From the IMG/VR virus record IMGVR_UViG_3300021131_000003, positions 17,659 through 81,658 of that record: DNA of 64,000 nt; one strand, 5' to 3'. The position numbers and the translations under genes are program-made. Below, in pieces: positions 58,917 through 64,000 of the stretch (position 1 is its first letter; every line of letters starts with the position of its first letter). The notes beneath the pieces were generated by a model. The model was not told the DNA's origin. It did not search any database and worked only from the letters and a program-made list of their open reading frames with translations. The stretch comes from a virus.

Positions 58917-59144
58917 TTACTTAGCTGCAAGAGCTTTCTTATACTCCTGGAAAGATACAAAAAGCTGATAGGTCAGGTCAGAGCGATTATCGTAGTGCTT
59001 CTCATCGAAGTGCCTAATCCAATCGGAAGCTGAGAAAGCTGCAGAGGCACAGCCATTATTAACATCATTCCAAGCTACCTTGGCAAAGCCTGCTTGGTCA
59101 CCGAGGTCATCAACCTGATTCCATAACCATGAAGTAAAGCGCAT
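58917..59144 (-). CDS. Conserved-looking actinophage protein, 75 aa
   Basis: FTSWLWNQVDDLGDQAGFAK, VAWNDVNNGCASAAFSASDW, IRHFDEKHYDNRSDL: a compact helical protein resembling the YozE/actinophage 'FT.WL..Q..R.D..GD.A' family in which residues shape a small helical bundle. Function unknown. Confidence 0.6.
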   Translation of the reverse strand: MRFTSWLWNQVDDLGDQAGFAKVAWNDVNNGCASAAFSASDWIRHFDEKHYDNRSDLTYQLFVSFQEYKKALAAK

Positions 59145-59220: not shown

Positions 59221-59724
59221 TTACTTGATTTTGATTGTCTTTGGCTGGAGCTCCTCAGGAAGGTTGCGCTCCAACTTGATTGTCAAGATGCCGTCCGCCA
59301 TCTCAGCGGAAACGACCTCTAGATAGTCCGCCAGTGGGAAGGTCTGTGTGAAGTCCCGCTTAGCGATACCGTGATGGATGTAGTCCAACTCGCCCTCTGA
59401 CAAGAAGCTGTCAATGCCCTCGCCTGTAACTGTTAGAACATTGTTCTGGACTGTTACGTCGATATCCTTCTTGGTGAATCCCGCCAGAGCAAAGCGAATC
59501 TCATACTTATCCTTGCCCATAGAGATGATGTCGTATGGGGGATATTTGCTAATTGAGCTCCCGCTGAGAATCTCTTCGAAGAACTTGAACTGATTGCCAA
59601 AGCCCACGCCCCGAGTGATAAGGGTTGTAGTTAGGTTTGGAGTTGGAACCGTGTATGTGCTCTTGTGAGGCTCACTTGAATACGGGCCTACATGAGGATT
59701 GTATTGACTGATGCTTGAAGCCAT
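59221..59724 (-). CDS. Small heat-shock protein (Hsp20 family)
   Basis: 167 residues. The alpha-crystallin domain is clear: YPPYDIISMGKDKYEIRFAL, AGFTKKDIDVTVQNNVLTVT, GIAKRDFTQTFPLADYLEVV, and an ...ADGILTIKLERNLP edge ending PKTIKI. Such phage sHsps are known from T4-like and pelagic phages. AGGAGA precedes the ATG. They may protect or scaffold virion assembly. Confidence 0.95.
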   Translation of the reverse strand: MASSISQYNPHVGPYSSEPHKSTYTVPTPNLTTTLITRGVGFGNQFKFFEEILSGSSISKYPPYDIISMGKDKYEIRFALAGFTKKDIDVTVQNNVLTVTGEGIDSFLSEGELDYIHHGIAKRDFTQTFPLADYLEVVSAEMADGILTIKLERNLPEELQPKTIKIK

Positions 59725-60816: not shown

Positions 60817-61119
60817 ATGGCATACACAGACCTAGAAGCATTAAAAGAACGTCTGAAGGCAGGGCAATCAAAGCCACGTCCGAAGCGTACTTATCGTAAG
60901 CGGGTAACCCTATCGCCGAGCAAGAAGGTAGAAATCGTAACAATGTTACGTGAAGCCTGCGAGTTCGCAGATGAGGCTCTTATCGAGCGCGAAGCAAAAA
61001 TGTACCAAGCCTACAAGATGGGCTTATCGGGTGCTGATATAGCGGAAGCGATGGGAATTAACCAAAGCGCGCTAGCAAAGCGACTCGCACGTGTTAAGGC
61101 AAAACTTAACGCCAACTAA
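60817..61119 (+). CDS. HTH DNA-binding protein, 100 aa
   Basis: A strong GGGGAGGTGAT site precedes the ATG. The N-terminus is basic (KPRPKRTYRKRVTLSPSKKV). The C-terminal MGLSGADIAEAMGINQSALA, KRLARVKAKL is a helix-turn-helix of the sigma-70 region 4/LuxR-like type. A probable early regulator; it could bind the hexamer arrays beside it (inference). Confidence 0.72.
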   Translation: MAYTDLEALKERLKAGQSKPRPKRTYRKRVTLSPSKKVEIVTMLREACEFADEALIEREAKMYQAYKMGLSGADIAEAMGINQSALAKRLARVKAKLNAN

Positions 61120-61198: not shown

Positions 61199-61228
61199 GA
61201 GCCCCAAGTGTCCCTGCGCTTGGGGCTC
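61199..61228 (+). terminator. Terminator-like hairpin before junction element 1
   Basis: GAGCCCCAAG/CTTGGGGCTC (10 bp, 10-nt loop), seven bases before the three-way junction. Only a partial U-tract follows (CATTTGTTTGTG), which is itself the start of the next element. Confidence 0.65.
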
Positions 61229-61235
61229 ACTCATT

Positions 61236-61327
61236 TGTTTGTGTTGGGCTATATACGGCAATCAGCAGCTTGCTGTGATTGCAAAAATATGCCTCGCATA
61301 TTTTTCGTATATAGCCCAACACAAACA
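61236..61327 (+). ncRNA. Three-way-junction structured element 1 (92 nt)
   Basis: A perfect 22-bp outer stem (TGTTTGTGTTGGGC... with its complement ending GCCCAACACAAACA) encloses two adjacent hairpins with no unpaired joining bases. Hairpin 1 (61258-61282) has GCAATCA/TGATTGC, a bulged base, CAG/CTG and loop CTTG. Hairpin 2 (61283-61305) has AAAAATATGC/GCATATTTTT with loop CTC. Element 2 repeats the architecture with a different sequence. It could act as RNA or as DNA cruciform; strand is uncertain. Confidence 0.75.
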
Positions 61328-61330
61328 TTC

Positions 61331-61369
61331 CTGAGAGTTGGCTGAGAGTATGCCGAGAGATTGCTGAGA
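61331..61369 (+). repeat. CTGAGA array with 11-bp spacing (early leader 2)
   Basis: CTGAGA at 61331, 61342 and 61364 and CCGAGA at 61353: four units exactly 11 bp apart, about one helical turn. A further CTGAGA is at 61420. ATTCACAGG (61385-61393) follows, as it does after element 2. Confidence 0.7.
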
Positions 61370-61412
61370 GAAAACACACAGGATATTCACAGGAAGATAG
61401 GCTTAGCGAGAG

Positions 61413-61440
61413 TTGCATTCTGAGAGAGTGAGAGTAGGCT
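61413..61440 (+). promoter_or_regulatory. Promoter candidate for the DUF932 gene
   Basis: TTGCAT, 16-bp spacer, TAGGCT; the -10 matches an actinobacterial TANNNT box. It lies about 45 bp before the GTG start, directly after the hexamer array. Confidence 0.5.
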
Positions 61441-61484
61441 AGGCCTGTCCTAGCATCCGCTAGGCTTTACGAAAGGTTAGGCTC

Positions 61485-62489
61485 GTGAACCAAAACACGA
61501 TTCACAAGTCAGAAGTGGATTCGGGCGAAGTATCGTTCGCAATCCGCGAAGACTTAAATCCAACGTGGCATTCGTTCGCTAATGCGACATTCGACCACGA
61601 CGCACAAGTCACAACAGCAGAAATGCTCAAGTCTGCAGAACTCTCTGATTGGAACGTTCGCTTAGAACCTGCAATCTACCCTGCCGATTACCGTCCTGTA
61701 TCTGAGGCGTTCAATGTAATCCGTACCAATCCGCGCGATGGTGGCGTGGATGTCCTTGCAACTGTAGGCAAGAAGTATCGCGCCTATCAGAACGAACAAC
61801 TGTTCGCATTCGGCGATAACCTCCTAGATGGTGGCGGTCGCTGGGATTCTGCAGGTTCTGTAAAGGATGGACGCGTCGCGTTCGGTTCTCTCATTCTTGA
61901 GCGTGAACTAGTTCTCGACCCACAGGGCGCAAGTGACGCCACACGTCACTATCTCCTAGTGACTACCTCACACGATGGCTCTAGTTCTATTAAGGCTCTC
62001 GTTACACCTGTTCGCGTTCTCTGCCAAAACTCTCTGAACGTGGCAATTCGTGGCGCAAAGCAATCGTTCTCCGTTCGCCACACTACTGGCACAGATGGAC
62101 GCTTGCAGGAGGCTCGCAAGGTTCTAGGGATTACTCACCAGTATCTCGACGAATTCGATACTCTCGCTCAAGAACTATTCCAGAGTGAAATCACCAATGC
62201 CGAATTCGATAAGATTGTCGCACAGGTTTATCCTGCTCCCGACGCTACCGCAAAGGCTGCCGTTACACGTTACACCGAGAAGGTCGACCTCATTCGCGGG
62301 CTCTACCTCAACTCTCCTACTCAGACCAATATCGTGGGAACTAAGTGGGGCGCGCTCAATGCCCTAACCGAACACCTCGATTACTTCCGCAAGGGTGACG
62401 CTACCAATTTAGCTGCTGCCGCTAGCGGATTCGAGGCAGGCGTCCTCAATCAGAAGGCGCGAATCCTTGAGATTGTGCAAGCCGCCTAA
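61485..62489 (+). CDS. DUF932 / phage-plasmid-like protein (TIGR03299-type), 334 aa
   Basis: GTG start with AAAGG upstream. Family features: ADYRPVSEAFNVIRTNPRDG, ATVGKKYRAYQNEQLFAFGD, and VRVLCQNSLNVAIRGAKQSF with a C-terminal helical region (NIVGTKWGALNALTEHLDYF). DUF932 proteins are frequent in actinophages and plasmids, often near replication or recombination genes, with function unknown. Codon use is more GC-rich than the late region, fitting an early high-expression gene. Confidence 0.9.
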   Translation: MNQNTIHKSEVDSGEVSFAIREDLNPTWHSFANATFDHDAQVTTAEMLKSAELSDWNVRLEPAIYPADYRPVSEAFNVIRTNPRDGGVDVLATVGKKYRAYQNEQLFAFGDNLLDGGGRWDSAGSVKDGRVAFGSLILERELVLDPQGASDATRHYLLVTTSHDGSSSIKALVTPVRVLCQNSLNVAIRGAKQSFSVRHTTGTDGRLQEARKVLGITHQYLDEFDTLAQELFQSEITNAEFDKIVAQVYPAPDATAKAAVTRYTEKVDLIRGLYLNSPTQTNIVGTKWGALNALTEHLDYFRKGDATNLAAAASGFEAGVLNQKARILEIVQAA

Positions 62490-62506
62490 GGTTAGCCAAT
62501 AAGTTC

Positions 62507-62532
62507 AGCCCCCCGACTTCCCTCGGGGGGCT
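62507..62532 (+). terminator. Terminator-like hairpin before junction element 2
   Basis: AGCCCCCCGA/TCGGGGGGCT (10 bp, loop CTTCCC) 18 bases after the DUF932 stop. Followed by TGACTTGTTTGTG, the start of element 2. Confidence 0.75.
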
Positions 62533-62538
62533 TGACTT

Positions 62539-62633
62539 GTTTGTGTTGGGGCATATAGCGGTAAATTACAGCCTGCTGAATTTACAAAAAATAACGTAAG
62601 TTATTTTTTCGCTGTATATGCCCCAACACAAAC
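62539..62633 (+). ncRNA. Three-way-junction structured element 2 (95 nt)
   Basis: Same fold as element 1: an outer stem of 19 bp plus 3 bp beyond a 2-nt bulge (GTTTGTGTTGGGGCATATA... with ...TATATGCCCCAACACAAAC). Hairpin 1 (62561-62585) has GTAAATT/AATTTAC, a bulged base, CAG/CTG and loop CCTG. Hairpin 2 (62586-62609) has AAAAAATAAC/GTTATTTTTT with loop GTAA. Most stem pairs in the hairpins differ from element 1 yet stay paired, which points to selection on structure. Confidence 0.75.
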
Positions 62634-62691
62634 TCTCAGGAGATTCACAGGTTCTCAGGAAACTCTAAGCATTCTCAGGAAACTCTAAGCA
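62634..62691 (+). repeat. TCTCAG array and 20-nt direct repeat (early leader 3)
   Basis: TTCTCAGGAAACTCTAAGCA occurs twice in tandem (62652-62671 and 62672-62691). TCTCAG (62634, 62653, 62673) and variant TCTAAG (62664, 62684) lie 11 bp apart inside each unit. The hexamers are reverse complements of those in leader 2. Confidence 0.7.
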
Positions 62692-62788: not shown

Positions 62789-63298
62789 ATGGAATACACG
62801 CAACCCGCCCTCTTTTACACAGAGGAAGAAGTAGCCGCTAAGGTTACTGAAGCCCGTCTAACCGACGCGTTAGACCACGCACACCAAACGCAACGCGCAA
62901 AAGATAACACCAATTTTAATTGCGCTCTCGTTTTGGAGGAGGAACTCCGAAACGCAGTATCCGACGATAAGATTAGTGCCGAGGATGCTAACCAACTATT
63001 CGCCAATATCGCTGGACGTCTAGGGTGGCAAGCCTCCGTAGACTTCACCACCAAACTATGGACAGTAACCCTATCCTGCAATTACGACGAAATCGCCACC
63101 TTTGACGATATCGAAGCCGAGGATGAGGACGACGCCGTAGAAATCGTGCGCGATAACCTTAATCTATATGACGTATCCGCCACCGCTACCTTCGAGTATG
63201 AGGGTAGCCAATACACCTACGAAGTAACCTCAGTAGAACACGACTTGGGTGATTACTTTACCGATAACCTAGAGTTCGAGGCTCGTCGCCAAGGATAA
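62789..63298 (+). CDS. Early acidic protein, 169 aa
   Basis: Reads MEYTQPALFYTEEEVAAKVT; middle SAEDANQLFANIAGRLGWQA; C-terminal strongly acidic (DDIEAEDEDDAVEIVRDNLN) and beta-rich (SATATFEYEGSQYTYEVTSV). Acidic, DNA-mimic-like composition is notable but no family is recognised. The ribosome-site context (AGAAAGCACGATAATG) closely matches that of the next gene. Confidence 0.7.
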   Translation: MEYTQPALFYTEEEVAAKVTEARLTDALDHAHQTQRAKDNTNFNCALVLEEELRNAVSDDKISAEDANQLFANIAGRLGWQASVDFTTKLWTVTLSCNYDEIATFDDIEAEDEDDAVEIVRDNLNLYDVSATATFEYEGSQYTYEVTSVEHDLGDYFTDNLEFEARRQG

Positions 63299-63347: not shown

Positions 63348-63378
63348 GGATAGGCTTAGTGCCAAGTAGAGCCTATCC
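63348..63378 (+). other. Inverted repeat in the spacer before the last early gene
   Basis: GGATAGGCT/AGCCTATCC (9 bp, 13-nt loop) 29 nt ahead of the ATG. No three-way junction or hexamer array appears in this spacer, unlike the two before it. Confidence 0.5.
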
Positions 63379-63406
63379 ACCCCAACTACTAATAGAAAGT
63401 ACGACA

Positions 63407-63946
63407 ATGTCCACAACCGCAAGAGTTTTATTCGACCAAATCACGCAAGAAGTAGAGGACGGCAAGAAGTACGTCATCCACTACGACACCTCCGACCTAG
63501 AGGACGGCGGTAAGGGTATGGAAGTCCTAGAGGCTTTGCCACTAGACGCAGGTACTTTAGCCTTTGGTAACTACAAGGTGCGCGACGCGCTCCTAGTAGA
63601 AGCCAACAAGGATGAGGAGTTCGCCTTTGTCCTAGTCAATAAGATTATGACGCACGTTAAGCAGAAGTCTGATGATAACGCTATCGTGCAGAGTGATATC
63701 GAAGCAGTAGCCACCGCCAGCCATATTCTCGCTATGTGGGAGTTAATCGAGCCAGCCGTAGGTACTTTAGAAATCGCTAAGATGATTATTGACTCTAATG
63801 AGGTAGAAACACCTAACCTTCTTAAATCAACTATGCAGGTAATCACCGCAGGTACTATGTTTGACCGCGATATCTCCAAATTGCGCCAGCAGATGGTTCA
63901 GGATATCGGTCAGGAAATCCTAGATAACCTAGACGACGAGGAATAA
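63407..63946 (+). CDS. Early acidic helical protein, 179 aa
   Basis: ATG at 63407 (AGAAAGTACGACAATG), sharing its start context with the preceding gene. Reads MSTTARVLFDQITQEVEDGK, then VIHYDTSDLEDGGKGMEVLE and helices (KSDDNAIVQSDIEAVATASH; FDRDISKLRQQMVQDIGQEI). Ends with an acidic DNLDDEE. Not recognised. Confidence 0.7.
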   Translation: MSTTARVLFDQITQEVEDGKKYVIHYDTSDLEDGGKGMEVLEALPLDAGTLAFGNYKVRDALLVEANKDEEFAFVLVNKIMTHVKQKSDDNAIVQSDIEAVATASHILAMWELIEPAVGTLEIAKMIIDSNEVETPNLLKSTMQVITAGTMFDRDISKLRQQMVQDIGQEILDNLDDEE

Positions 63947-63959
63947 TCCTAGCGTGAAC

Positions 63960-63983
63960 CGCTGGCGGGTTTCCCCGCCAGCG
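63960..63983 (+). terminator. Terminator-like hairpin at the right edge
   Basis: CGCTGGCGGG/CCCGCCAGCG (10 bp, loop TTTC) just after the last early stop. It mirrors the hairpins that precede junction elements 1 and 2. Confidence 0.7.
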
Positions 63984-63991
63984 AGCGCAGA

Positions 63992-64000
63992 TTGTTTGTG
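63992..64000 (+). other. Probable start of junction element 3, cut by window edge
   Basis: TTGTTTGTG is identical to the first bases of elements 1 and 2 (TTGTTTGTGTTGGG) and sits at the same place after a terminator-like hairpin. Confidence 0.5.

Follow-up and report, generated by a model that had tools for sequence, protein, structure and literature searches.

The early-gene spacers of this uncultivated phage carry copies of a strongly folded element, which raises the question of whether the element acts as RNA or as DNA, and what it does there. The window, the whole stretch of 64,000 bases that was analyzed, is the terminal part of an 81,658-base IMG/VR virus record, and window position 64000 is the last base of that record. 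Two complete elements, E1 and E2, and the probable start of a third lie in an array whose genes, like their neighbors, are homologous to those of actinobacterial phages (Streptomyces, Gordonia, Brevibacterium); freshwater actinobacteria are probably the hosts of this phage group. The array contains the following features.

60817–61119, + strand: 100-aa HTH protein 5′ of E1, sigma-70 region 4-like by a weak match below the Pfam cut-off
61199–61228, + strand: terminator-like hairpin directly 5′ of E1, with equivalents before other family members
61236–61327, no strand assigned: element E1, a 22-bp outer stem and two inner hairpins in a three-way junction, with a counterpart in the relative L164
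61331–61370, + strand: CTGAGAG-type 7-mers at 11-bp spacing, 3′ of E1
61413–61440, + strand: promoter-like TTGCAT-N16-TAGGCT, putatively serving the DUF932 gene
61485–62489, + strand: DUF932 protein (phrog_1221), between E1 and E2; its gene is the anchor of the array in relatives
62507–62532, + strand: terminator-like hairpin directly 5′ of E2, computed
62539–62633, no strand assigned: element E2, a 19+3-bp outer stem with a 2-nt bulge and two inner hairpins
62634–62690, + strand: CTCAGGA/ACTCTAAGC repeats 3′ of E2, recognized by eye without a separate score
62710–62739, + strand: promoter-like TTGACC-N18-TAGAGT, putatively serving the 169-aa gene; over the whole region such matches are no more frequent than chance
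62789–63298, + strand: 169-aa early protein, the next unit of the array, with homologues in 9 of 25 element-bearing loci
63359–63946, + strand: 195-aa early protein before the third copy
63960–63983, + strand: GC hairpin CGCTGGCGGG-tttc-CCCGCCAGCG, 5′ of the truncated third copy, read from the sequence
63992–64000, no strand assigned: probable third element, of which the first 9 nt precede the contig end; complete copies stand in the equivalent spacers of relatives

A phage-encoded HSP20-type small heat-shock protein (window 59221–59724, − strand) adjoins the early array.

The first-pass annotation had drawn E1 and E2 as closed three-way junctions, and RNA folding, both strands and DNA parameters agree with that drawing. 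The outer stem of E1 is a perfect 22-bp helix, that of E2 consists of 19 bp, a 2-nt bulge and 3 bp, and the inner hairpins of both adjoin without joining bases. These hairpins are GCAATCA-g-CAG(cttg)CTG-TGATTGC and AAAAATATGC(ctc)GCATATTTTT in E1, and GTAAATT-a-CAG(cctg)CTG-AATTTAC and AAAAAATAAC(gtaa)GTTATTTTTT in E2. The bulged base described at a common position is present in both RNA folds, whereas folding E1 as DNA gives a slightly different pairing in that hairpin. Including flanks, the RNA minimum free energies are −58.0 kcal/mol for E1 and −53.0 kcal/mol for E2; folded as DNA, the individual strands of E1 and E2 give z-scores of −14.0, −12.2, −11.2 and −11.7, with none of 200 shuffles equally stable. 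The 81,658-base contig holds four exact inverted repeats of at least 12 bp, and only E1 and E2 exceed 14 bp. It is the paired motif that is rare, since the end motif alone, with three mismatches allowed, yields 8 matches against 7.1 expected. A terminator-like hairpin does stand before each element, and no Rfam family matches above the gathering threshold anywhere in the window, in keeping with the annotation's remark that the element fits no class familiar to it. The third copy that it proposed follows a terminator-like hairpin in the same way and begins with TTGTTTGTG, but nothing can be read past the last base of the record; relatives with complete spacers in the equivalent array carry 3 to 6 copies. 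Contigs end inside or exactly at an element in several cases (window position 64000, L179, L180, L195, L203 and L207), which suggests that the hairpins break assemblies or amplification.

The element is repeated well beyond this phage. In total, the family comprises more than 100 natural hairpin variants on about 50 IMG/VR contigs of uncultivated phages, with 1–9 copies each. The paired pattern GTTTGTGTTGGG-N55..85-CCCAACACAAAC matched 17 stretches among 2.9 million viral contigs, many of them multi-copy, and a degenerate form added a few more. Contigs of these phages each contain about 4 to 13 occurrences of GTTTGTGYYGG, compared with 0 or 1 for the reversed control. A single end motif, TTGTTTGTGTTGGG, was discarded as a search key: it hit more than 119 viral stretches, mostly unrelated, and among the loci tested the partner arm was present only in its own genome. 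A single-sequence search with the DUF932 protein found no relatives, whereas an alignment of 11 DUF932-gene sequences succeeded and led to 80 further loci, many of which contain arrays of long perfect palindromes with different end sequences; two further scans added phages with up to 8–9 copies each. Matches in bacterial genomes were rejected as members: most were either GC-rich repeats from a single Myxococcales MAG or pairs arising by chance, whose ends and interiors were unrelated. In the cultured relatives examined (phages of Gordonia, Brevibacterium and Streptomyces), the 17–32 kb around the homologous genes contain nothing comparable to these inverted repeats, the cultured phage collection holds no record with the array, and no paper describing the element was found in the open-access literature searched; the family is apparently undescribed so far.

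Copies within one genome have ~12 bp in common at each end and differ in their stems and apical parts. This base motif is uniform inside each phage and varies between lineages, as variations on a common TTGTT..GTTGG plan: besides GTTTGTGTTGGG, the ends are TTGTTACGTTGG in L195 (six copies), TGTTTGGGTTGG in L202, TTGTTGAGTTGG in L218, and TTGTTAGGTTGG and TTGTTGGGTTGG in phages L210, L220 and L230. All copies lie among co-directional early genes, where nearly every spacer of the early array holds one. Genes on either side of DUF932 keep their order, and the elements occupy orthologous positions in diverged phages. Some related DUF932-bearing phages lack the element; since they keep the DUF932 gene, the array is common to both groups and the element has been added to it. 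Six loci have only a terminal repeat of 8–11 bp, placed around other structured or GT-rich interiors. As some relatives keep only this short repeat and others carry DUF932 without any element, the element is not essential to early expression generally.

The closed three-way junction is a property of E1 and E2 rather than of the family: among the members seen, it recurs only in L164 (contig G002), which contains the structural counterpart of E1. The other members have one apical hairpin with 10–20 unpaired bases, and the elements range continuously in length between 68 and 95 nt. This continuous variation counts against two sites that need helical phase on linear DNA, and phasing of the two end motifs was rejected for this reason. 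Lineages of the TTGTT type have two classes of element, with the base motif pointing inward (IN) or outward (OUT). The OUT class lies to the left of the DUF932 gene and the IN class to its right, with gene direction unchanged. Apical AGCT/GCTTT/AAAGC motifs occur in 21 of 30 IN versus 5 of 24 OUT copies, and GATC in none of 30 versus 8 of 24. Within the same phage, apical parts can also be reverse complements of one another (scores of 21.5, 18.5 and 15.5, versus shuffle maxima of 10.5–11.5). Such inversion favors a role as DNA, since it would ruin a sequence-specific RNA.

Several structural variants were also seen. Four loci (L167 11328–11470; L175, G012 80950–81091; L178 3662–3803; L188 6884) contain a form of 105–143 nt in which the same terminal repeats enclose three hairpins and two ACCCACCC motifs; in several phages this form directly precedes an AAA-ATPase/VWA gene pair. 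Such a pair, an AAA (CbbQ/CobS-like) ATPase with a VWA (CobT-like) protein, is located 3′ of the array in L168 (4247–7611) and is also present in Gordonia phages. The terminal-repeat elements at L187 2729 and 3877 enclose a series of consecutive short hairpins whose loops are GCGAAGC or CTTCGG. Short-stem variants in L187, L190, L201 and L208 have G- and GT-rich sense strands (e.g. TGGGTGGGGTGG), with possible G-quadruplex potential.

The earlier proposal that structure rather than sequence is conserved in these early spacers is borne out by covariation in the homologues. Outer stems are fully paired over 18–32 bp. In the 32 distinct window-type outer stems, 99.7% of cells pair and 10 pairs have changed on both sides; cells changed on both sides number 112, compared with a shuffle mean of 29, and one-side (G-U) changes are absent from 608 stem cells. 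Sliding one arm by 1–3 columns as a control lowers pairing to 33–45%. A broader set gives 1868 Watson-Crick pairs, two G-A mismatches and no G-U, a count biased by a detection step that required long inverted repeats; beyond position 12, only the window-type set, found through its ends, is free of bias. Covariation extends to the conserved box (TTGGG/CCCAA, CTGGG/CCCAG, TCGGG/CCCGA). In several stem pairs, insertions or deletions have entered both arms together: CT with AG (L175_4299/L215_5771), GG with CC (L164_2091/L164_3169) and T with A (L173_5129/L177_682). Paired indels favor DNA, since hairpin-templated copying of DNA accounts for them simply and selection on an RNA needs two events. 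Perfect pairing alone is no proof of selection, as template switching may keep the arms identical mutationally; we argue for function because the placement is fixed and the ends and loops are lineage-specific.

That placement follows a regular order: stop codon, terminator, element, (DnaA box), 7-mers at 11 bp, promoter-like motif, often a short hairpin (seen by eye), ribosome-binding site and start codon. A GC-rich terminator hairpin with a T tract is found upstream of 66 of the 83 elements, compared with 2 of 83 shuffled, and is usually 0–6 nt away. Downstream, repeat matches at a lag of 11 number 218, versus 7–23 at other lags, and the 7-mers so spaced differ by phage (CTGAGAG, CTGTGAA, GTTCACC, ATAACGA). 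The GTTCACC repeats, among the phased 7-mers in spacers of L210, L229, L230 and L286, resemble actinobacterial PHO boxes (PhoP/PhoB-type direct repeats). A promoter-like GAGAG...TAnnnT motif follows 39 of 82 elements (4.8 expected), and the weaker consensus TTGnnn...TAnnnT follows 26 of 82, versus 13. With a terminator upstream, and phased repeats and a promoter-like motif downstream, the element probably lies outside ordinary mRNAs; a start site upstream of it is possible, as the promoters were assigned by a weak consensus.

We propose, at a probability of roughly 45%, that the element is a protein-recognized, cruciform-forming DNA insulator or upstream control element of early transcription units. 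This reading of the sequences builds on the observed family, its placement, the conservation of pairing, the paired indels, the apical inversion and the lineage-specific ends. The palindrome would extrude in the cell as a DNA hairpin or cruciform, at a site flanked by the terminator of the preceding early unit and the control region of the following one. A hypothetical phage-encoded protein would bind the stem base through its lineage-specific sequence of ~12 bp, and might also read the class-specific unpaired apical motif; base motifs that differ between lineages and are uniform within a phage are what a co-evolving trans factor would be expected to leave. Every early unit would thereby be marked, which could insulate it topologically and transcriptionally from its neighbor and/or control the adjacent promoter from upstream, so that the step affected may be insulation, activation, repression or replication. 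A 75-aa protein with no known domain (window 58917–59144, − strand) is encoded in 17 of 25 element-bearing versus 1 of 22 element-free loci; it was rejected as the trans factor on co-occurrence, because phylogeny and window position confound the comparison and it has no domain. More tentatively, each lineage's protein might read its own barcode at the base of a cruciform that marks almost every early unit, with two hairpin classes distinguished by motif orientation and loop motifs, such that structured DNA, and not linear operators, would organize early expression or replication in abundant freshwater phages.

Four independent points favor DNA over RNA: placement and order in the spacer, the lack of G-U pairs in the outer stem, indels common to both arms, and apical parts in both orientations. 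Of the roles initially suggested, DNA structure is thus favored, and small RNA and mRNA end stabilizer are disfavored; packaging is unlikely because the site occurs 3–9 times within the early region. An RNA element, folding in read-through or antiterminated early transcripts for RNase III processing or mRNA-end stabilization as in T7, would suit the confinement of all copies to spacers of co-directional early genes and their very low RNA free energies. Among 46 elements, the sense strand is also the more stable fold in 25 and the less stable in 8 (mean difference −1.9 kcal/mol), and in three window-type orthologues the better sense fold comes from apical G-U pairs. This stability comparison is not decisive as an RNA test, the large differences coming from a few orthologous elements, and with the four points above against it we regard an RNA role as unlikely.

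A replication element, in which dispersed hairpins linked to DnaA boxes serve as secondary origins, primosome assembly sites or DnaA titration sites, has in its favor a perfect DnaA box, TGTGGATAA, 2–34 nt downstream of 52 of the 59 window-type copies, in the same orientation in 51. The box occurs 114 times in 395 kb (L163–L182), compared with 0–7 for permuted words, and some terminator hairpins consist of paired DnaA boxes. However, no box follows E1 or E2 in the window phage (0 of 2) or the copies in L164 (0 of 3), nor was one present in the TTGTTNNGTTGG lineages read, and an origin would not be expected once per early gene, so that we consider this role decidedly unlikely. About half of the 114 boxes are near elements, and the remainder lie elsewhere.

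Alternatively, the palindrome might be selfish or mobile in the manner of a MITE or REP sequence: a trans-acting enzyme would work on its terminal repeats to spread it, and would favor DNA that follows a terminator. The terminal inverted repeats typical of MITEs are indeed there, with GTTTGTGTTGGG or TTGTTNNGTTGG at both ends, conserved and lineage-specific around a variable interior; paralogous apical parts lie either way round within one genome, and DUF932-bearing phages occur with and without the element. Nevertheless, orthologous positions are kept across diverged phages, the flanks show by eye no clear or consistent target-site duplication, and the searches returned no Y1 transposase (PF01797) in 14 records and no tyrosine recombinase (PF00589) in 18 phage records, the control for the latter being positive in 14 of 14 genomes. 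Mobility is therefore very unlikely. Least probable of all is a replication by-product, in which template switching perfects any inverted repeat and the elements would otherwise be terminators in decay or remnants of promoters. In E. coli, template switching is known to correct quasipalindromes (PMC7202029), and the paired indels are compatible with such a process, but the lineage-uniform base motifs, the class-specific apical motifs and the placement in nearly every early spacer are left unexplained.

The reading as a DNA insulator or control element matters because functional DNA cruciforms are rarely demonstrable in genomes. Here, pairing is kept almost perfectly while the sequence is rewritten, at a fixed position in the unit and with lineage-specific recognition sequences, which makes the family a ready comparative system for asking whether DNA hairpins serve as regulatory marks and how phages retain long palindromes, which are usually unstable. 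The elements also help to annotate uncultivated phages, as they show where the early array lies and several contig ends fall on them.

Among known systems, integron attC sites likewise form gene-hairpin arrays with conserved outer boxes and a variable terminal structure, but the present elements lack the extrahelical bases and unpaired central spacer of a folded attC stem, their stems are fully paired and the gene order is conserved; attC was rejected on the recombinase search. REP/BIME and MITE sequences are also dispersed intergenic palindromes with conserved ends, whereas orthologous positions are fixed here and orientation and context are conserved; REP/RAYT was rejected given the transposase result. 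The intercistronic RNase III sites of phage T7 are conserved hairpins between early genes that lie within one long transcript and act as RNA, in contrast to elements in which each unit has its own terminator and G-U pairs are absent. Phage N4 has DNA hairpins near its early promoters; these are 5–7 bp long and part of the promoter, whereas the stems described here span 18–32 bp and stand upstream of host-type promoter-like motifs. The PeSL (promoter-early stem-loop) cassettes of T4-type phages, a stem-loop with a promoter repeated between variable early genes, are alike in placement and layout though not in sequence, the promoters of the present array being putative ones assigned by a weak consensus. 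They differ in that the present element is a separate long palindrome after a terminator, with perfectly paired, covarying stems, and in that its copies have ~12 bp of common ends rather than the sequence similarity that homologous recombination would use. The hr regions of baculoviruses are palindromic repeats scattered close to early genes, where they serve both as enhancers and as origins by way of an activator that the virus encodes. They differ from the phage elements, which occur once per early transcription unit with lineage-specific ends and a variable interior, and the likeness is one of layout and, by analogy and not homology, of function.
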